A stretch of DNA of 33,079 nucleotides from a virus. The translations under genes were made by a program, and so were the position numbers. This document shows positions 8,744 through 30,526 of the stretch, piece after piece (position 1 is the stretch's first letter; each line of letters starts with the position of its first letter). The notes beneath the pieces are model-generated. The model had not been told where the DNA came from, ran no database searches, and worked only from the letters and a program-made list of their open reading frames with translations. The stretch covers positions 1 to 33,079 of the IMG/VR virus record IMGVR_UViG_3300042289_001168; one strand, 5' to 3'.

Positions 8744-9474
8744 TAGATAACAATCAACTCTAACTGATCTTCTTGATTCATTTCTATTGAAGTTGGATTT
8801 CCAACAATATCAAAGTCAACTAAATTATTTTTTATTTGATCAATTTGATTATATTTTGAAAGAACAATATCAAATGAAAGAGTTACTCTTTCAGAATCTC
8901 CATTGTGGATACTACTTCCGTGAGGAATGAATGATGGGAACAAGGTTAGCAATCCTGGTTCATTTTCTGATTCATACCCCTTGCTTGGGAGAAATGGGTT
9001 GTAGAATTTAGTAACCGTACCCTCACTAGCAAGGACAAGATTCCCTGATAGATGAGTCCAGGGTCCATGAGCATGGTTATGTATATTTATATTTTGCCCT
9101 TTCCTCATGACATTTGCCCAGCAAAGTATTTTTACATCAAATCTTTCCACTCCAAGAGCTTCTATATAGGCAATATACATTTGATGAATACATTGTTTTA
9201 CAAGCGCAATTTCTGGTTCATCCCATCTAAATACATTGTAAGAGCAGAATCTTACAGTTAAGCTATCTTTGCCAAGAGAACTACCTTCATCACTATAACC
9301 AGCAGTATCTAGAGCTGGTATCTCGTCAATAATCAACTGCTCTTTGCTTAAAATAATATCTGCCAATCTTTGTGCAAGACCTGGGGGAATTATGAAGTCC
9401 TCGGCTAAACTAAACTTCCATTCAGGGGCAAGAGGGCTTTTTTTTTCATTATTTTTTGATGTAAGAATTCTCAT
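8743..9474 (-). CDS. 2-oxoglutarate/Fe(II)-dependent oxygenase (phage T4-like putative 2OG-Fe family)
   Basis: A 243-residue protein with a double-stranded beta-helix core. INIHNHAHGPWTHLSGNLVL (about 130-149) carries closely spaced His132, His134 and His136, which would provide the first iron ligands in the H-x-H style of this family. LFPSFIPHGSSIHNGDSERV (about 178-197) carries the distal His185 and Arg196, which binds 2-oxoglutarate. This matches the putative 2OG-Fe(II) oxygenase family common in T4-like marine phages (PF13759-like, from memory). It hydroxylates or otherwise oxidises an unknown substrate. It is joined by TAATG to the halogenase upstream and to the membrane protein downstream, which suggests one pathway. 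The N-terminal 25 residues look disordered. Confidence 0.85.
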   Translation of the reverse strand: MRILTSKNNEKKSPLAPEWKFSLAEDFIIPPGLAQRLADIILSKEQLIIDEIPALDTAGYSDEGSSLGKDSLTVRFCSYNVFRWDEPEIALVKQCIHQMYIAYIEALGVERFDVKILCWANVMRKGQNINIHNHAHGPWTHLSGNLVLASEGTVTKFYNPFLPSKGYESENEPGLLTLFPSFIPHGSSIHNGDSERVTLSFDIVLSKYNQIDQIKNNLVDFDIVGNPTSIEMNQEDQLELIVI

Positions 9475-10976
9475 TATACTCCTAAAAACTCATTATGAGT
9501 AATACAAATATTTTCAAGACTAGATGTTTTTTCTAAATAATTGCTATACATGCTAATGAATTCGGGTGTGAATAGACCATTGTAAAGCATTTCTTGTTGT
9601 ATTGTAGATTTATCTATATAACCAACACCCATTAAAATAGCAATATAACCATACAAACCAAACATTGAAACATTGTTTATATCATCATATGAAATAATAT
9701 TTTGTTTACATTTTTCTAAAAGAAGATCCACACCTTCTGTTGGGCGATATTCTTTTTTATAATTTTTCCAAAAATCATTATTTTTTTTATCTGTTAAATA
9801 ATGTATGTATATAAAATCAATAATCTCTTTATTGCTCTCAACAAAAAAATTGTTATAAAGATCTATATTGTATTTATTTATATTTTTAACAAAGTTTCTA
9901 TTTGACAAAATTTTCTTTAAATATCTTGCTGTTCCTAGTAAAGATGTTGCTTCTAATGGTTCAACAAATCCGCTTGATAAACCAATAGCGGCGCAATTAT
10001 TGATCCATGACTTTTCATAGTACCCAGCTTCAAAATTAAATGTATTTACAATCTCAACATCAGTATTAAAATATTTGTCAATTTCATCTTTAGCTTCATC
10101 TTTACTAATATATTCATTGTTAAAAACATAGCCAGCACCAACTCTTGTTTGTGTTGGTATATTCCACATCCACCCATAATCCATCGCTATGGCTTCCGTG
10201 TATGGTTTTATTTCATTCTTATTTTTTAAGAAAAATGCCATTGCGGAGTTCATTGGTAAATGCTCTTTATATGATATCCACTTTGCCTTATAAAAAGAGC
10301 CAATAATTAATCTCTTAAAACCACTGCAATCAAAAACAAAATCGCAATCATAATTAGTATTATTATTGCAAGATAATGACTGTATGAATCCATCACTATC
10401 TGTATTTATTTTTTGAACAATTGCATCAACATGATTAACACCTCTTGATATTGCAACTTTTTTTAAAAACTCAGCCAGCTTTCTTGCGTTGAAATGAACA
10501 GCGAAACTAGATATAGATCGGCTACCATTCACATCCGTTGGTGGTTTATTAAACGGAACCATATTTTTTTCACTCAATCTTCCAACCCAATCAATTCTCT
10601 TAAAAGAATTATTTTGGTAGAAGTCAAAAAGCATTAAATCAAGTGAGTTAGTTCCTGTAAAATTAGAGAAGGGTTTAACTGAATCAATGGCTAAATCACC
10701 TATTGGTTTAAATGTATAGTAATAATCCTGACTTGACCAATTAGTAAATTTGATACCATTTTTAATTGTTGCATCACAATTTTTAATCAAATCTAATACT
10801 GATATTCCTAAAAATTGCATTAAATCAACAACGCCTGGAACAGTACCTTCGCCCGCTCCAAGAATACCAATCTCTTCACTTTCAATAACGGTAACATCAG
10901 ATTCGGGGTGCATCCTTTTGCAATACAATGCCGATAGCCAACCAGCAGTTCCTCCACCAACAACAATAAATTTCAT
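9474..10976 (-). CDS. Flavin-dependent tryptophan-halogenase-family enzyme
   Basis: A 500-residue protein close in length to PrnA/RebH-type halogenases. Family signatures are complete. The FAD-binding VGGGTAGWLSALY lies at 6-18 and AGEGTVP near 41-47. Lys72 in DATIKNGIKF sits where the catalytic lysine that forms the haloamine is found. The diagnostic WxWxIP motif appears as WMWNIP (269-274), followed by VGAGYVFNNEYIS. GLSSGFVEPLEATS (332-345) contains Glu342 at the catalytic-glutamate position. Such enzymes use FADH2, O2 and halide to halogenate aromatic substrates; tryptophan is not guaranteed. The usual ST after PLE is here AT, which could alter halide handling. No flavin reductase is visible nearby, so the host must supply FADH2. 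The gene overlaps both neighbours (ATGA upstream, TAATG downstream) and is markedly AT-rich, which suggests acquisition. Confidence 0.93.
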   Translation of the reverse strand: MKFIVVGGGTAGWLSALYCKRMHPESDVTVIESEEIGILGAGEGTVPGVVDLMQFLGISVLDLIKNCDATIKNGIKFTNWSSQDYYYTFKPIGDLAIDSVKPFSNFTGTNSLDLMLFDFYQNNSFKRIDWVGRLSEKNMVPFNKPPTDVNGSRSISSFAVHFNARKLAEFLKKVAISRGVNHVDAIVQKINTDSDGFIQSLSCNNNTNYDCDFVFDCSGFKRLIIGSFYKAKWISYKEHLPMNSAMAFFLKNKNEIKPYTEAIAMDYGWMWNIPTQTRVGAGYVFNNEYISKDEAKDEIDKYFNTDVEIVNTFNFEAGYYEKSWINNCAAIGLSSGFVEPLEATSLLGTARYLKKILSNRNFVKNINKYNIDLYNNFFVESNKEIIDFIYIHYLTDKKNNDFWKNYKKEYRPTEGVDLLLEKCKQNIISYDDINNVSMFGLYGYIAILMGVGYIDKSTIQQEMLYNGLFTPEFISMYSNYLEKTSSLENICITHNEFLGV

Positions 10977-26619: not shown

Positions 26620-26865
26620 TTATTTACGTTTTCTTTTGTCTTTTGTAGGTGTGTCTTCGATATCAAAGTTCAAACATTTTACACCATTTTCAATAAACTT
26701 GCGGGCCTGTTCTTCAGAAATTTCACAAGTAACGGGCAAATGGCTATACATGCATTTCGAAGCCGCCAGCCAGCATCCGTTGGCCTGTACTAGGGTGATG
26801 TAATTATTGTCGACAATTGCCGAGCCGCTGTAGTCGTCTGACTCTACAATCCCAATAATTTTCAT
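26620..26865 (-). CDS. Small hypothetical protein, first minus-strand gene
   Basis: An 81-residue protein from the ATG at 26865 (MKIIGIVESDDYSGSAIVDN), with beta-like N-terminus, Cys-containing middle (ANGCWLAASKCMYSHLPVTC) and a strongly basic tail (KDKRKRK). I recognise no family. Upstream in-frame codons to 26901 exist, but they lie within the promoter -10/-35, so I prefer 26865. The TATACT -10 ends five bases before the ATG. Confidence 0.6.
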   Translation of the reverse strand: MKIIGIVESDDYSGSAIVDNNYITLVQANGCWLAASKCMYSHLPVTCEISEEQARKFIENGVKCLNFDIEDTPTKDKRKRK

Positions 26866-26870
26866 ACAAA

Positions 26871-26898
26871 AGTATATCACTTTCACTATTATTATCAA
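26871..26898 (-). promoter_or_regulatory. Leaderless promoter of the leftward early-type operon
   Basis: On the minus strand, TTGATA (26893-26898), a 16-base spacer and extended -10 TGaTATACT (hexamer at 26871-26876). The -10 ends five bases before the ATG at 26865, with no Shine-Dalgarno. It drives the small gene and probably the glycosyltransferase and reductase. Confidence 0.65.
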
Positions 26899-26974
26899 CA
26901 AAATACTAAGTACACTAAGAATACCAATATGCTTATTGTATATATAGTATAAGTGTTTACTAAGCGTACTAGTG

Positions 26975-27001
26975 TGCTAGGCATGCTACGCATGCGAAGC
27001 A
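26975..27001. repeat. Hairpin-forming inverted repeat in the divergent region
   Basis: TGCT (26975-26978), two unpaired bases, GCATGC, a three-base loop, GCATGC, two unpaired bases, then AGCA (26998-27001). The stem is readable on both strands. It has no T-run, so it is not a simple terminator and is more likely an operator or structural element. Confidence 0.5.
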
Positions 27002-27042
27002 TACCATATGGGAAAGACCTTTGTCTCAAGAAAATATTTTTT

Positions 27043-27075
27043 TTGCAAGATTTTTTTAAAATTCTGTGAGATAAT
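27043..27075 (+). promoter_or_regulatory. Leaderless rightward promoter
   Basis: An extended -10 (TGaGATAAT, hexamer at 27070-27075) ends six bases before the ATG at 27082. A TTGCAA at 27043-27048 is 21 bases upstream of the hexamer, longer than ideal, but an extended -10 can act without a good -35. No Shine-Dalgarno is present. Confidence 0.55.
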
Positions 27076-27081
27076 CATATT

Positions 27082-27261
27082 ATGATTTACGGATTAATTA
27101 TTTACCTGCTCTATATGACGCTCAATGCATTTTTGCTAAAAAGTGCAATATCACTGGGGTTTGATCACAACATAGGCTGGGGGTCAGCAATTCTATTTTC
27201 TTTAGTATCTAGTATGTTTGTTGTTGTTCATAGGTACAGAAAAACAGATGTACAAGATTAA
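27082..27261 (+). CDS. 59-residue membrane protein
   Basis: Translation from the ATG at 27082 gives 59 residues: a hydrophobic helix at about 3-20 (YGLIIYLLYMTLNAFLL), a polar turn (GFDHNIGWG), a second helix at about 33-50 (SAILFSLVSSMFVVV) and a basic tail (HRYRKTDVQD). The extended -10 six bases upstream supports a leaderless start. The next gene starts inside its last codons. No family is recognised. It is too short for common gene-length cut-offs. Confidence 0.6.
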   Translation: MIYGLIIYLLYMTLNAFLLKSAISLGFDHNIGWGSAILFSLVSSMFVVVHRYRKTDVQD

Positions 27262-28208: not shown

Positions 28209-29240
28209 ATGCCTGTTCGTTCTTGCTCAGATGGAAACAACCCCGGTTATAAGTGGGGGGATAGTGGTAAATGCTACACCTACACCACGGGTGATCAGCA
28301 ATCAATGGAAGCCGCAAAAGCGAAAGCTCAAATGCAGGGTGTTGCTGCAAGAGTTAACGGTTATGAAGAAAAGGCGAATGAAGTAACGACTGGCTCAATG
28401 GGTTCGGGCATCAAGAATCCTCAACAAGGATATAAACCAAAGAAGAAAAAGAAAAAAGAAGATTTTGGTAAAAGCCTTGATCAATGGTTTAAAGAAAGAT
28501 GGGTGGATATATCCCGACCAAAAGCTGGCGGTGGTTTTGAGCCATGCGGCAGAGCAGACGCTGAGTCGGGAAAGTATCCTAAGTGCGTACCAGCCGCTCG
28601 TGCTGCAAGAATGACACCTGCGCAGATTGCATCGGCAGTCAGGCGCAAGCGCACAGCTGAGTCATCCCAGACAAGGCAGGGTAAAAAGCCTATTAATGTT
28701 TCAACAGATGTTGAGAAAGCATCTCGCAATGTTCCAACCAACCCCTCTCTCTACGCCCGAGTCAAAGCTGAGGCTAAAGCGAAATTTGATGTCTACCCCT
28801 CAGCCTACGCAAATGCATGGCTTGTCCGTGAATATAAAAAACGAGGCGGCGGTTATAGAGTTGTAAACAAGTCCGAGGAATTTGTGAATAAAATTGCAGA
28901 TGACCTTGATGAGCAAGAGGCAGTCTTGGCTGATATGCTGGTCGCAATTACTCGTCGGTATGGTAAGTTTAACGAAGACGAAACAGGTGTTTGGGCTGGC
29001 TACGACTCCCCAGATGAAAATGATGTAGCTGACATCGGAGTTAAATGTTCTAATTGCGTTTTATATGAAGGCGAAGGGGTGTGCAAGATACTCGCACAAA
29101 AAGTTGAGGAAGAAGGCAAGTGCAGATTTGCCATCATCCCAGACGGCATAGTTGAGCCAGAAGAGGATGATGATGAGGAAGATGATGAAGAAGCCATCAT
29201 GAGTTATATTATAAACAGAGTTAAAGAATATTTAATGTGA
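28209..29240 (+). CDS. DUF5872-like phage protein with acidic tail
   Basis: A 343-residue protein. The N-terminus (PVRSCSDGNNPGYKWGDSGK) is a small Cys-containing module found alone in other phages. A Lys-rich linker (PKKKKKKEDFG) follows. The region of about 93-215 includes WVDISRPKAGGGFEPCGRAD, YPKCVPAARAARMTPAQIAS, NPSLYARVKAEAKAKFDVYP and WLVREYKKRGGGYR, the recognisable DUF5872 signature shared by many marine phages (recalled). The C-terminus has four Cys/Asp/Glu-rich segments and a strongly acidic stretch (PEEDDDEEDDEE). A DNA- or capsid-interacting role is conceivable but not shown. The gene starts with the promoter described at 28195 and has no Shine-Dalgarno. Confidence 0.8.
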   Translation: MPVRSCSDGNNPGYKWGDSGKCYTYTTGDQQSMEAAKAKAQMQGVAARVNGYEEKANEVTTGSMGSGIKNPQQGYKPKKKKKKEDFGKSLDQWFKERWVDISRPKAGGGFEPCGRADAESGKYPKCVPAARAARMTPAQIASAVRRKRTAESSQTRQGKKPINVSTDVEKASRNVPTNPSLYARVKAEAKAKFDVYPSAYANAWLVREYKKRGGGYRVVNKSEEFVNKIADDLDEQEAVLADMLVAITRRYGKFNEDETGVWAGYDSPDENDVADIGVKCSNCVLYEGEGVCKILAQKVEEEGKCRFAIIPDGIVEPEEDDDEEDDEEAIMSYIINRVKEYLM

Positions 29241-29258
29241 TATGCTTATAAGTATATC
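29239..29258. promoter_or_regulatory. 20-bp near-perfect palindrome before the next gene (operator candidate)
   Basis: GATATGCTTATAAGTATATC has one mismatched base pair and a central CTTATAAG. It overlaps the stop of the preceding gene, includes a TGaTATGCT extended -10-like element, and shares ATATGCTTAT with the divergent region at 26927-26936. The AAGGAG before the ATG at 29278 lies downstream of it. Confidence 0.45.
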
Positions 29259-30070: not shown

Positions 30071-30526
30071 ATGTCAGAAGACAGCATTCACGAAGAAGAA
30101 CCTGGGTTTACGGCGACAAGAGAGTTCGATGCTATTTTTAATAAACTAATCGCATCAGTCCCCGCATCCAGCCAGAGAGAGGCTGCATCTGTCATATATG
30201 GTCATTACAAAGGTTGGGCTCCATCAAAGACCATTAAGTATTACAACATTGATGAAGAAACATATTCAACATACGCTGAATTTTTTAAATTCAGAGAAAA
30301 GGTGGTAAATAAAATGGCTGGAAGAAAATCTAAGCAAGATAGCATTGTTAACTTTCTTAACGGAAATGTCGGGAAGGTTGTTACACCTGTGCAGTTAGCT
30401 ACAGATGTACAAATCTCACTCCCGACTTTTTATAATTTCTATAATGCGAATCGTTCTTACTTTAAAAAAGTAAAACGTGGACATTTTGAAATTATTGACC
30501 CTAAAGTTGAGCGAGCAAATAGCTAA
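30071..30526 (+). CDS. Putative HTH/winged-helix DNA-binding protein
   Basis: A 151-residue protein from the ATG at 30071, chosen because AGAGAAGGG lies seven bases upstream and because earlier in-frame codons (TTG at 30017, ATG at 30044) fall in the promoter -35 and -10. The helical first part contains SQREAASVIYGHYKGWAPSK. The C-terminal part, about 90-145 (KQDSIVNFLNGNVGKVVTPV, then ISLPTFYNFYNANRSYFKKV), looks like a winged helix with recognition helix near STPTFYN-like residues. It could regulate transcription or be a small terminase subunit. No confident family. Confidence 0.6.
   Translation: MSEDSIHEEEPGFTATREFDAIFNKLIASVPASSQREAASVIYGHYKGWAPSKTIKYYNIDEETYSTYAEFFKFREKVVNKMAGRKSKQDSIVNFLNGNVGKVVTPVQLATDVQISLPTFYNFYNANRSYFKKVKRGHFEIIDPKVERANS

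Follow-up and report, generated by a model that had tools for sequence, protein, structure and literature searches.

A tandem array of short, degenerate repeats lies between two divergent genes of an uncultured phage and is conserved beside one of them, gene A, across a large family of relatives. We consider it plausible, and hold tentatively, that this is a cis-regulatory operator/activator array, which a phage DNA-binding protein would bind cooperatively, acting on gene A and on the genes behind it. The element is a candidate for the single conserved control point of a large family of uncultured phages (with probably actinobacterial hosts), and a candidate regulator can be paired with the candidate operator.

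Structure of the tandem array

The window (the whole stretch of DNA analysed here) is a virus record from IMG/VR, 33,079 bases long. Its region 26866-27081 is intergenic, between gene A on the minus strand and gene B on the plus strand, and comprises, with its flanking genes, the following features.

26620..26865, minus strand: gene A, 81 aa, the constant neighbour of the array
26871..26879, minus strand: TGATATACT, extended -10 of the leaderless gene A promoter, ending 5 nt before the ATG (26865)
26901..27007, no strand assigned: the array, 12 units of consensus GTATRCTWR at a spacing of 8-11 bp, from self-identity and unit-model chains
27008..27066, no strand assigned: A/T-rich stretch from the array to the gene B promoter, from its sequence
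27067..27075, plus strand: TGAGATAAT (TGA-GATAAT), extended -10 of the leaderless gene B promoter, ending 6 nt before the ATG at 27082
27082..27261, plus strand: gene B, 59 aa, absent from the matches in many relatives, which have another first gene there

Using a unit model (G-[T/C]-A-T-[A/G]-C-T-[A/T]-[A/G]) fitted to 24 cluster representatives, and chains of units spaced 8-11 bp, we found in the window a 107-bp chain of 12 degenerate units in tandem with a score of 85.3 (80.9 when the window and L018 were left out of the fit). The second-best place in the window scored 13.9 with a model fitted without the window, and 20 simulated windows reached at most 17.9. Self-identity at a lag of 9 was 0.505 over positions 26891-27000 (z 5.1), a value attained by none of 500 dinucleotide shuffles, and 0.451 over 59 regions taken together, versus 0.281 in shuffles (z 26.8); because these regions are kin (24 clusters), the z values overstate the independent evidence. 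Over all 59 regions, units were most often spaced 9 bp apart (310 spacings), followed by 8 (138), 10 (52) and 11 bp (21). Short direct repeats at regular spacing, beyond chance, as defines a tandem operator or iteron array, were what we found.

The motifs pointed out by an earlier sequence-only reading of this DNA (ACTAAG, ATATGCTTAT and a GCATGC hairpin) are units or unit parts of this larger array, whose underlying 9-bp order that reading had missed. The three ACTAAG copies that it reported were located at 26905, 26914 and 26959 on the plus strand; the hexamer is unenriched in the window as a whole (12 copies vs 14.85 expected), so that its clustering alone is notable. These three copies span the joints of five units, ATATGCTTA is a further unit, and the two GCATGC copies start two more. 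A coding explanation of the 9-bp period, as three codons, was rejected, since by eye there are stops within units and the 8-, 10- and 11-bp spacings break the frame. No Rfam family reached its gathering score within the window.

Divergent promoters and flanking genes

Of 34 tight extended -10 matches up to 60 nt upstream among 905 ORFs from seven relatives, 12 were placed precisely 6 nt from the ATG, and leaderless starts are thus a genuine class in these phages. The leaderless promoters proposed from sequence alone were in this respect borne out; they do not face each other as described, being divergent and placed back to back. Several relatives have a Shine-Dalgarno sequence on the plus side, that is, the plus-side gene is not leaderless there. 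For gene A, at a fixed 6-nt distance (a frame that the window itself, with 5 nt, fails), a -10 within two mismatches of TATAAT was present in 15 of 24 cluster representatives and the TGN extension in 13. No -35 consensus was seen at the gene A promoter in these representatives (3.29 mismatches to TTGACA vs 3.40 in shuffled sequence). A GATAA box upstream of the gene A -10, visible by eye in many relatives, was discarded: a strict pattern recovered it at gene A in two of eight records and nowhere else.

Gene A had no Pfam match at E 0.1 and a single weak PHROG match (phrog_757, E 0.0094); its model is a small beta-rich fold (mean pLDDT 77.3) with no PDB fold match at E 0.001. Gene B matched no PHROG or Pfam family, and the alternative first gene on the plus side of several relatives is presumably ThyX. 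Gene B and the gene after it were not found in many lineages, in which the array and gene A persist; this change of the first plus-side gene while the array stays was counted in favour of the operator reading. The region had also been called switch-like. With its divergent genes, leaderless promoters, repeats and hairpin it has the look of a regulatory region; a switch is unproven, genes A and B matching no repressor family. As regards a lambda-type arrangement, neither gene matches any regulator family and the helix-turn-helix (HTH) candidate, gene H, sits 3 kb off.

Conservation and linkage of the array

Gene A and the gene at 28209 were used to find relatives. Gene A was detected in 91 of 97 sequences (96 loci, some sharing a contig, plus the window), which yielded 59 distinct versions of the region. 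The array is kept in 58 of them, window included, with 5-14 units (median 11) and chain scores of at least 36.2; the sole exception, L018, scored 12.8. In all seven large records examined, the array was the top-scoring place, with 40.7-80.0 vs at most 25.3 elsewhere among the places listed. The distance from the first unit to the ATG of gene A was 40 nt in the median (range 7-68).

An exact 22-base pattern of the array had 41 matches in the viral collection, three of them already known from the loci found through gene A, and all 41 adjoin gene A; within that collection the pattern can serve as a sequence tag. Six exact matches in unrelated metagenome-assembled genomes (MAGs) of the genome collection were set aside as chance, their chain scores (26.5-33.5) being below the lowest of the 58 regions. 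A pattern for the hairpin gave 58 matches, 52 beside gene A and six with no gene A match in the stretch examined; among the latter, L206 has the array close to its contig start, and the best chains of the other five scored 14.6-28.2.

The phage family and its large records

The minus strand of the window carries portal, head-protease, head and tail-fibre genes, the portal being ~44% identical to portals of Streptomyces phages (Stanwilliamsviridae). A low-GC segment among the virion genes holds a predicted tryptophan halogenase gene (9474-10976; phrog_2928, E 4.7e-112). A WhiB profile, which among 14 control genomes responded in Corynebacterium only, detected WhiB in 11 of 15 records (14 relatives plus the window), including all nine of at least 71 kb, and from this distribution the hosts are probably Actinobacteria. 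The family is a freshwater, uncultured one.

The seven larger relatives' records used for comparison were G001-G006 and G010. G002 has a terminal overlap of 123 nt and is therefore probably complete, at ~108.6 kb; it encodes Clr5, MerR and WhiB proteins. In all seven, nearly all genes lie on one strand and a short opposite-strand block begins at the array element. The largest of these records have ~100 kb of genes on a single strand and one such block, which carried tRNA-Thr and tRNA-Asn genes in the four records scanned for tRNAs (G001, G002, G005, G006). Past the block lies a GC-richer, low-coding stretch of ~8 kb (L105:8000-16000 in G002; similar in G001, G003-G006 and G010). In G002, the only one inspected, this stretch holds repeat families ~790-970 bp apart with a long hairpin (e.g. 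GGTGTAACTTTT...AAAAGTTACACC), the stem of which varies among copies with complementarity kept, and also TGTAATATTACA palindromes.

A stem-loop embedded in the array

The hairpin noted in the sequence-only reading was located within two array units, at the array end distal to gene A, and forms the inner tier of a larger structure.

26981..26995, no strand assigned: inner stem-loop GCATGC-TAC-GCATGC, inside two array units
26973..27003, minus strand: outer stem, TATGCT (27003-26998) with AGCACA (26978-26973), one A.C mismatch in the window, from strand-neutral scoring
26998..27006, minus strand: TGGTATGCT, extended -10-like, directed toward gene A beside the hairpin, a possible second promoter, from the pattern TG(N)TAYGCT

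The stem sequence varies between lineages with complementarity kept (GCATGC/GCATGC, CGCATC/GATGCG, GAAGCG/CGCTTC, TTCGCTT/AAGCGAA and others), stems having been selected as the most complementary ones, which favours this count. When 57 zones were grouped into 17 clusters, folding beat mononucleotide shuffles in 16 of 17 representatives (z at most -2.1), L055 being the only one with no stem beyond chance. An outer stem TATGCT/AGYATA was seen in many zones under strand-neutral scoring. TG(N)TAYGCT, which resembles the extended -10 of the promoters, was present in 56 of 59 regions. On the minus strand, again with strand-neutral scoring, there were more G.T than A.C pairs (17 vs 6 in the 17 representatives, 36 vs 18 over all 57 zones), a bias that leans weakly toward a minus-strand RNA or a single-strand structure; in the window the plus strand folds better (-15.9 vs -13.0). 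A terminator was rejected, as by eye no T-run directly follows the stem on either strand.

The palindrome at 29239

29239..29258, plus strand: stem-loop GATATGCT-TATA-AGTATATC, preceding the 29278 gene's Shine-Dalgarno sequence; not one of the array sites

It had been proposed that a half-site shared with this palindrome marks one regulator acting at both places. The sharing itself was reproduced: ATATGCTTAT occurs twice in the window, at 26927 and 29240, where 0.22 copies are expected, and two of 100 shuffles had at least two. The regulatory conclusion was not upheld, as 29239 is a separate stem-loop and ordinary as an array unit: its best unit scores were 6.4 (plus) and 6.8 (minus), and 76 window positions reach 6.4. 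In relatives the site reads GATATGCT-4 nt-AGYATATC or GGYATATC with a fully paired stem. Twelve sequences, the window and 11 relatives selected because they have the palindrome, show no variation in the 5' arm; every change in their 3' arm gives a G.U (5) or a U.G (2) pair. When eight records were scanned with a pattern for this stem, five had one such place, at a distance of 1.6-2.4 kb from the array; there were two further matches, one elsewhere in G003 and another within the array of G004. Lineages without the stem (e.g. L012, L016) have TGNTACAAT-like promoter sequences instead. The shared 10-mer is best read as two extended -10-like sequences, and the 29239 stem-loop may be a translation or mRNA-processing element.

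Gene H as a candidate binder

30071..30526, plus strand: gene H, 151 aa, predicted helical N-terminal domain and C-terminal winged helix, from the model and fold matches; candidate array-binding protein

Gene H, named as the obvious suspect in the sequence-only reading for its HTH, was modelled with a mean pLDDT of 82.0 and a C-terminal winged helix, in agreement with that suggestion; as binder of the array it stays a candidate by fold. Residues ~84-144 aligned with the winged helices of Zalpha, CRP, MarR and IclR at Z 6.7-7.8, a level that may reflect only the common arrangement, and AspA and TubR were also among its generic winged-helix matches. In sequence searches no PDB chain scored better than E 0.96, and against Pfam there were scattered weak HTH matches. 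Relatives of H occur family-wide and share a nearly invariant segment, SLPTFYNFYNANR..FKK, inside the winged helix.

The array was present in 67 of 69 newly fetched H loci, which had been searched with the conserved H segment as the pattern; in the other two the stretch would fall beyond the contig start. L018 (= L285) and L286 have gene A and H, lack the array and carry an altered H segment. This combination, seen in one clade only, fits H as the binder without proving it, and against the link stands the fact that the array is associated just as constantly with other genes of the phage family. On the strength of its predicted fold, H is the best, unproven, candidate for the array-binding protein.

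Proposed mechanism and alternative explanations

What the analysis shows directly is the array with its conservation and position, a class of leaderless promoters, and a predicted winged helix in H. From here we infer that a phage-encoded protein, of which H is the candidate, would bind the tandem 8-9-bp units cooperatively and form a filament between the divergent promoters. From ~40 bp upstream of the gene A start, a position where activators often bind, the filament would activate (or repress) the weak gene A promoter; its effect would extend to the long minus-strand series behind gene A, with glycosyltransferase, ribonucleotide reductase, portal and virion genes, and might also reach the plus-strand block. 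A far bolder version, which we advance as speculation and think improbable, is that the array and its two-tier stem-loop form a phage master control element of a new kind, in which H, as a two-domain DNA-binding protein, would polymerise on the 9-bp repeat track, with a lineage-variable hairpin at the promoter, and set the transcription timing of ~100 kb of one-strand genes (perhaps also the place where replication starts) throughout a widespread freshwater family of actinobacterial phages.

A simple operator leaves the embedded stem-loop unexplained, and two other readings give it a role. The element might be a replication origin, with the units as iterons for an initiator and the hairpin and A/T-rich stretch as the opening region of bidirectional replication; tandem repeats at one place per record with these neighbours, a cumulative GC skew minimum near 27 kb in the window and a skew sign change at the element in all seven large records would agree with it. 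However, skew tracks gene strand almost everywhere and flips with it, and is thereby confounded; minus-oriented genes beyond the element show stronger skew, where a lagging strand should show weaker skew. Nor is the element the least stable place, ranking 5 to 89 among non-overlapping 100-bp windows in the seven large records and 7 in the window. Skew and duplex stability provide no independent support for an origin, and we regard it as rather unlikely. The stem-loop might instead belong to a structured leader RNA, a minus-strand transcript from upstream of the hairpin in which the two-tier stem-loop and the array would form a 5' leader for processing, antitermination or translation. Stems that differ by lineage and remain complementary (though picked for complementarity), the folding of 16 of 17 representatives and the G.T excess are what this would predict; but the excess is small and its cells are non-independent, the window folds better as plus strand, L055 has no stem beyond chance, and further downstream gene A already has a leaderless promoter of its own. 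Moreover, if TGGTATGCT is a -10, transcription would begin within the stem, so that the RNA cannot form it. We find a leader RNA unlikely.

We weighed two further readings. The array could serve in partition or in organising the DNA, as a centromere-like site that a winged-helix protein coats in the manner of TubR on tubC, given tandem units beside a promoter, a winged-helix protein and the presence of AspA and TubR among the generic matches of H. However, the support from folds is generic and weak (Foldseek E at least 0.07), a tubulin-like match (PF00091) occurred in none of 12 records, which are possibly incomplete, and a ParA-like match (PF13614) exceeded the cut-off in none, with three of the 12 weak and below it; the likelihood of a partition site is slight. 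Since each unit carries TATACT or TATGCT, the array could also act on RNA polymerase itself, as tandem -10-like decoys that hold or pause the polymerase and sigma between the promoters. TATRCT lies inside the unit consensus and the extended -10 TGNTATRMT is one promoter type of these phages, yet the unit consensus lacks the TGN extension and decoys have no need of a regular 8-9-bp spacing, which makes this explanation very unlikely indeed. The operator/activator array is the reading that we carry forward.

Comparison with known systems

No description of the element was found in the literature searched, mainly titles and abstract starts of the best matches, nor in the accessible parts of PMC10611076, PMC3274233 and PMC5016525. 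In Streptomyces phage Annadreamy (Stanwilliamsviridae), a distant relative, gene order at the divergent region is comparable, with glycosyltransferases and ribonucleotide reductase on one side and, on the other, a block that includes ThyX and tRNA-Thr, but there is no array, the best chain in the first 16 kb scoring 11.5.

As far as the accessible text of PMC5016525 goes, omega/parS of plasmid pSM19035 is a run of 7-10 short, promoter-overlapping iterons that serve as both operator and centromere, with an affinity that depends on unit number. To that extent the layout of the phage array, short tandem units at a promoter, is comparable; the omega unit is 7 bp, whereas the phage array has 8-9 bp and an embedded stem-loop. 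No ribbon-helix-helix family was among the 25 listed of 39 Pfam families matched by 101 small G002 proteins. The MetJ operators (met boxes), according to a passage of PMC3274233 and the title of PubMed 2693904, are tandemly repeated 8-bp palindromes with several copies per promoter. The phage array likewise appears as short tandem units with a palindromic core, but its main spacing is 9 bp, it has 5-14 units, and no MetJ-like protein was seen. The met box sequence differs from the phage array unit.

In TubR/tubC type III partition, again as described in the accessible part of PMC5016525, a small winged-helix protein binds direct repeats upstream of the operon and doubles as a repressor. Direct repeats near a promoter and the predicted winged helix of H would be points of likeness; the phage array differs in lying at the divergent promoter of other genes, and membership in TubRZC fails because no TubZ was found in the 12 records. 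Tandem, promoter-overlapping operator arrays are therefore already known, and by this comparison the phage array is alike in layout, its embedded stem-loop being unusual. It has the look of an array on which a phage protein docks to control many phage genes.
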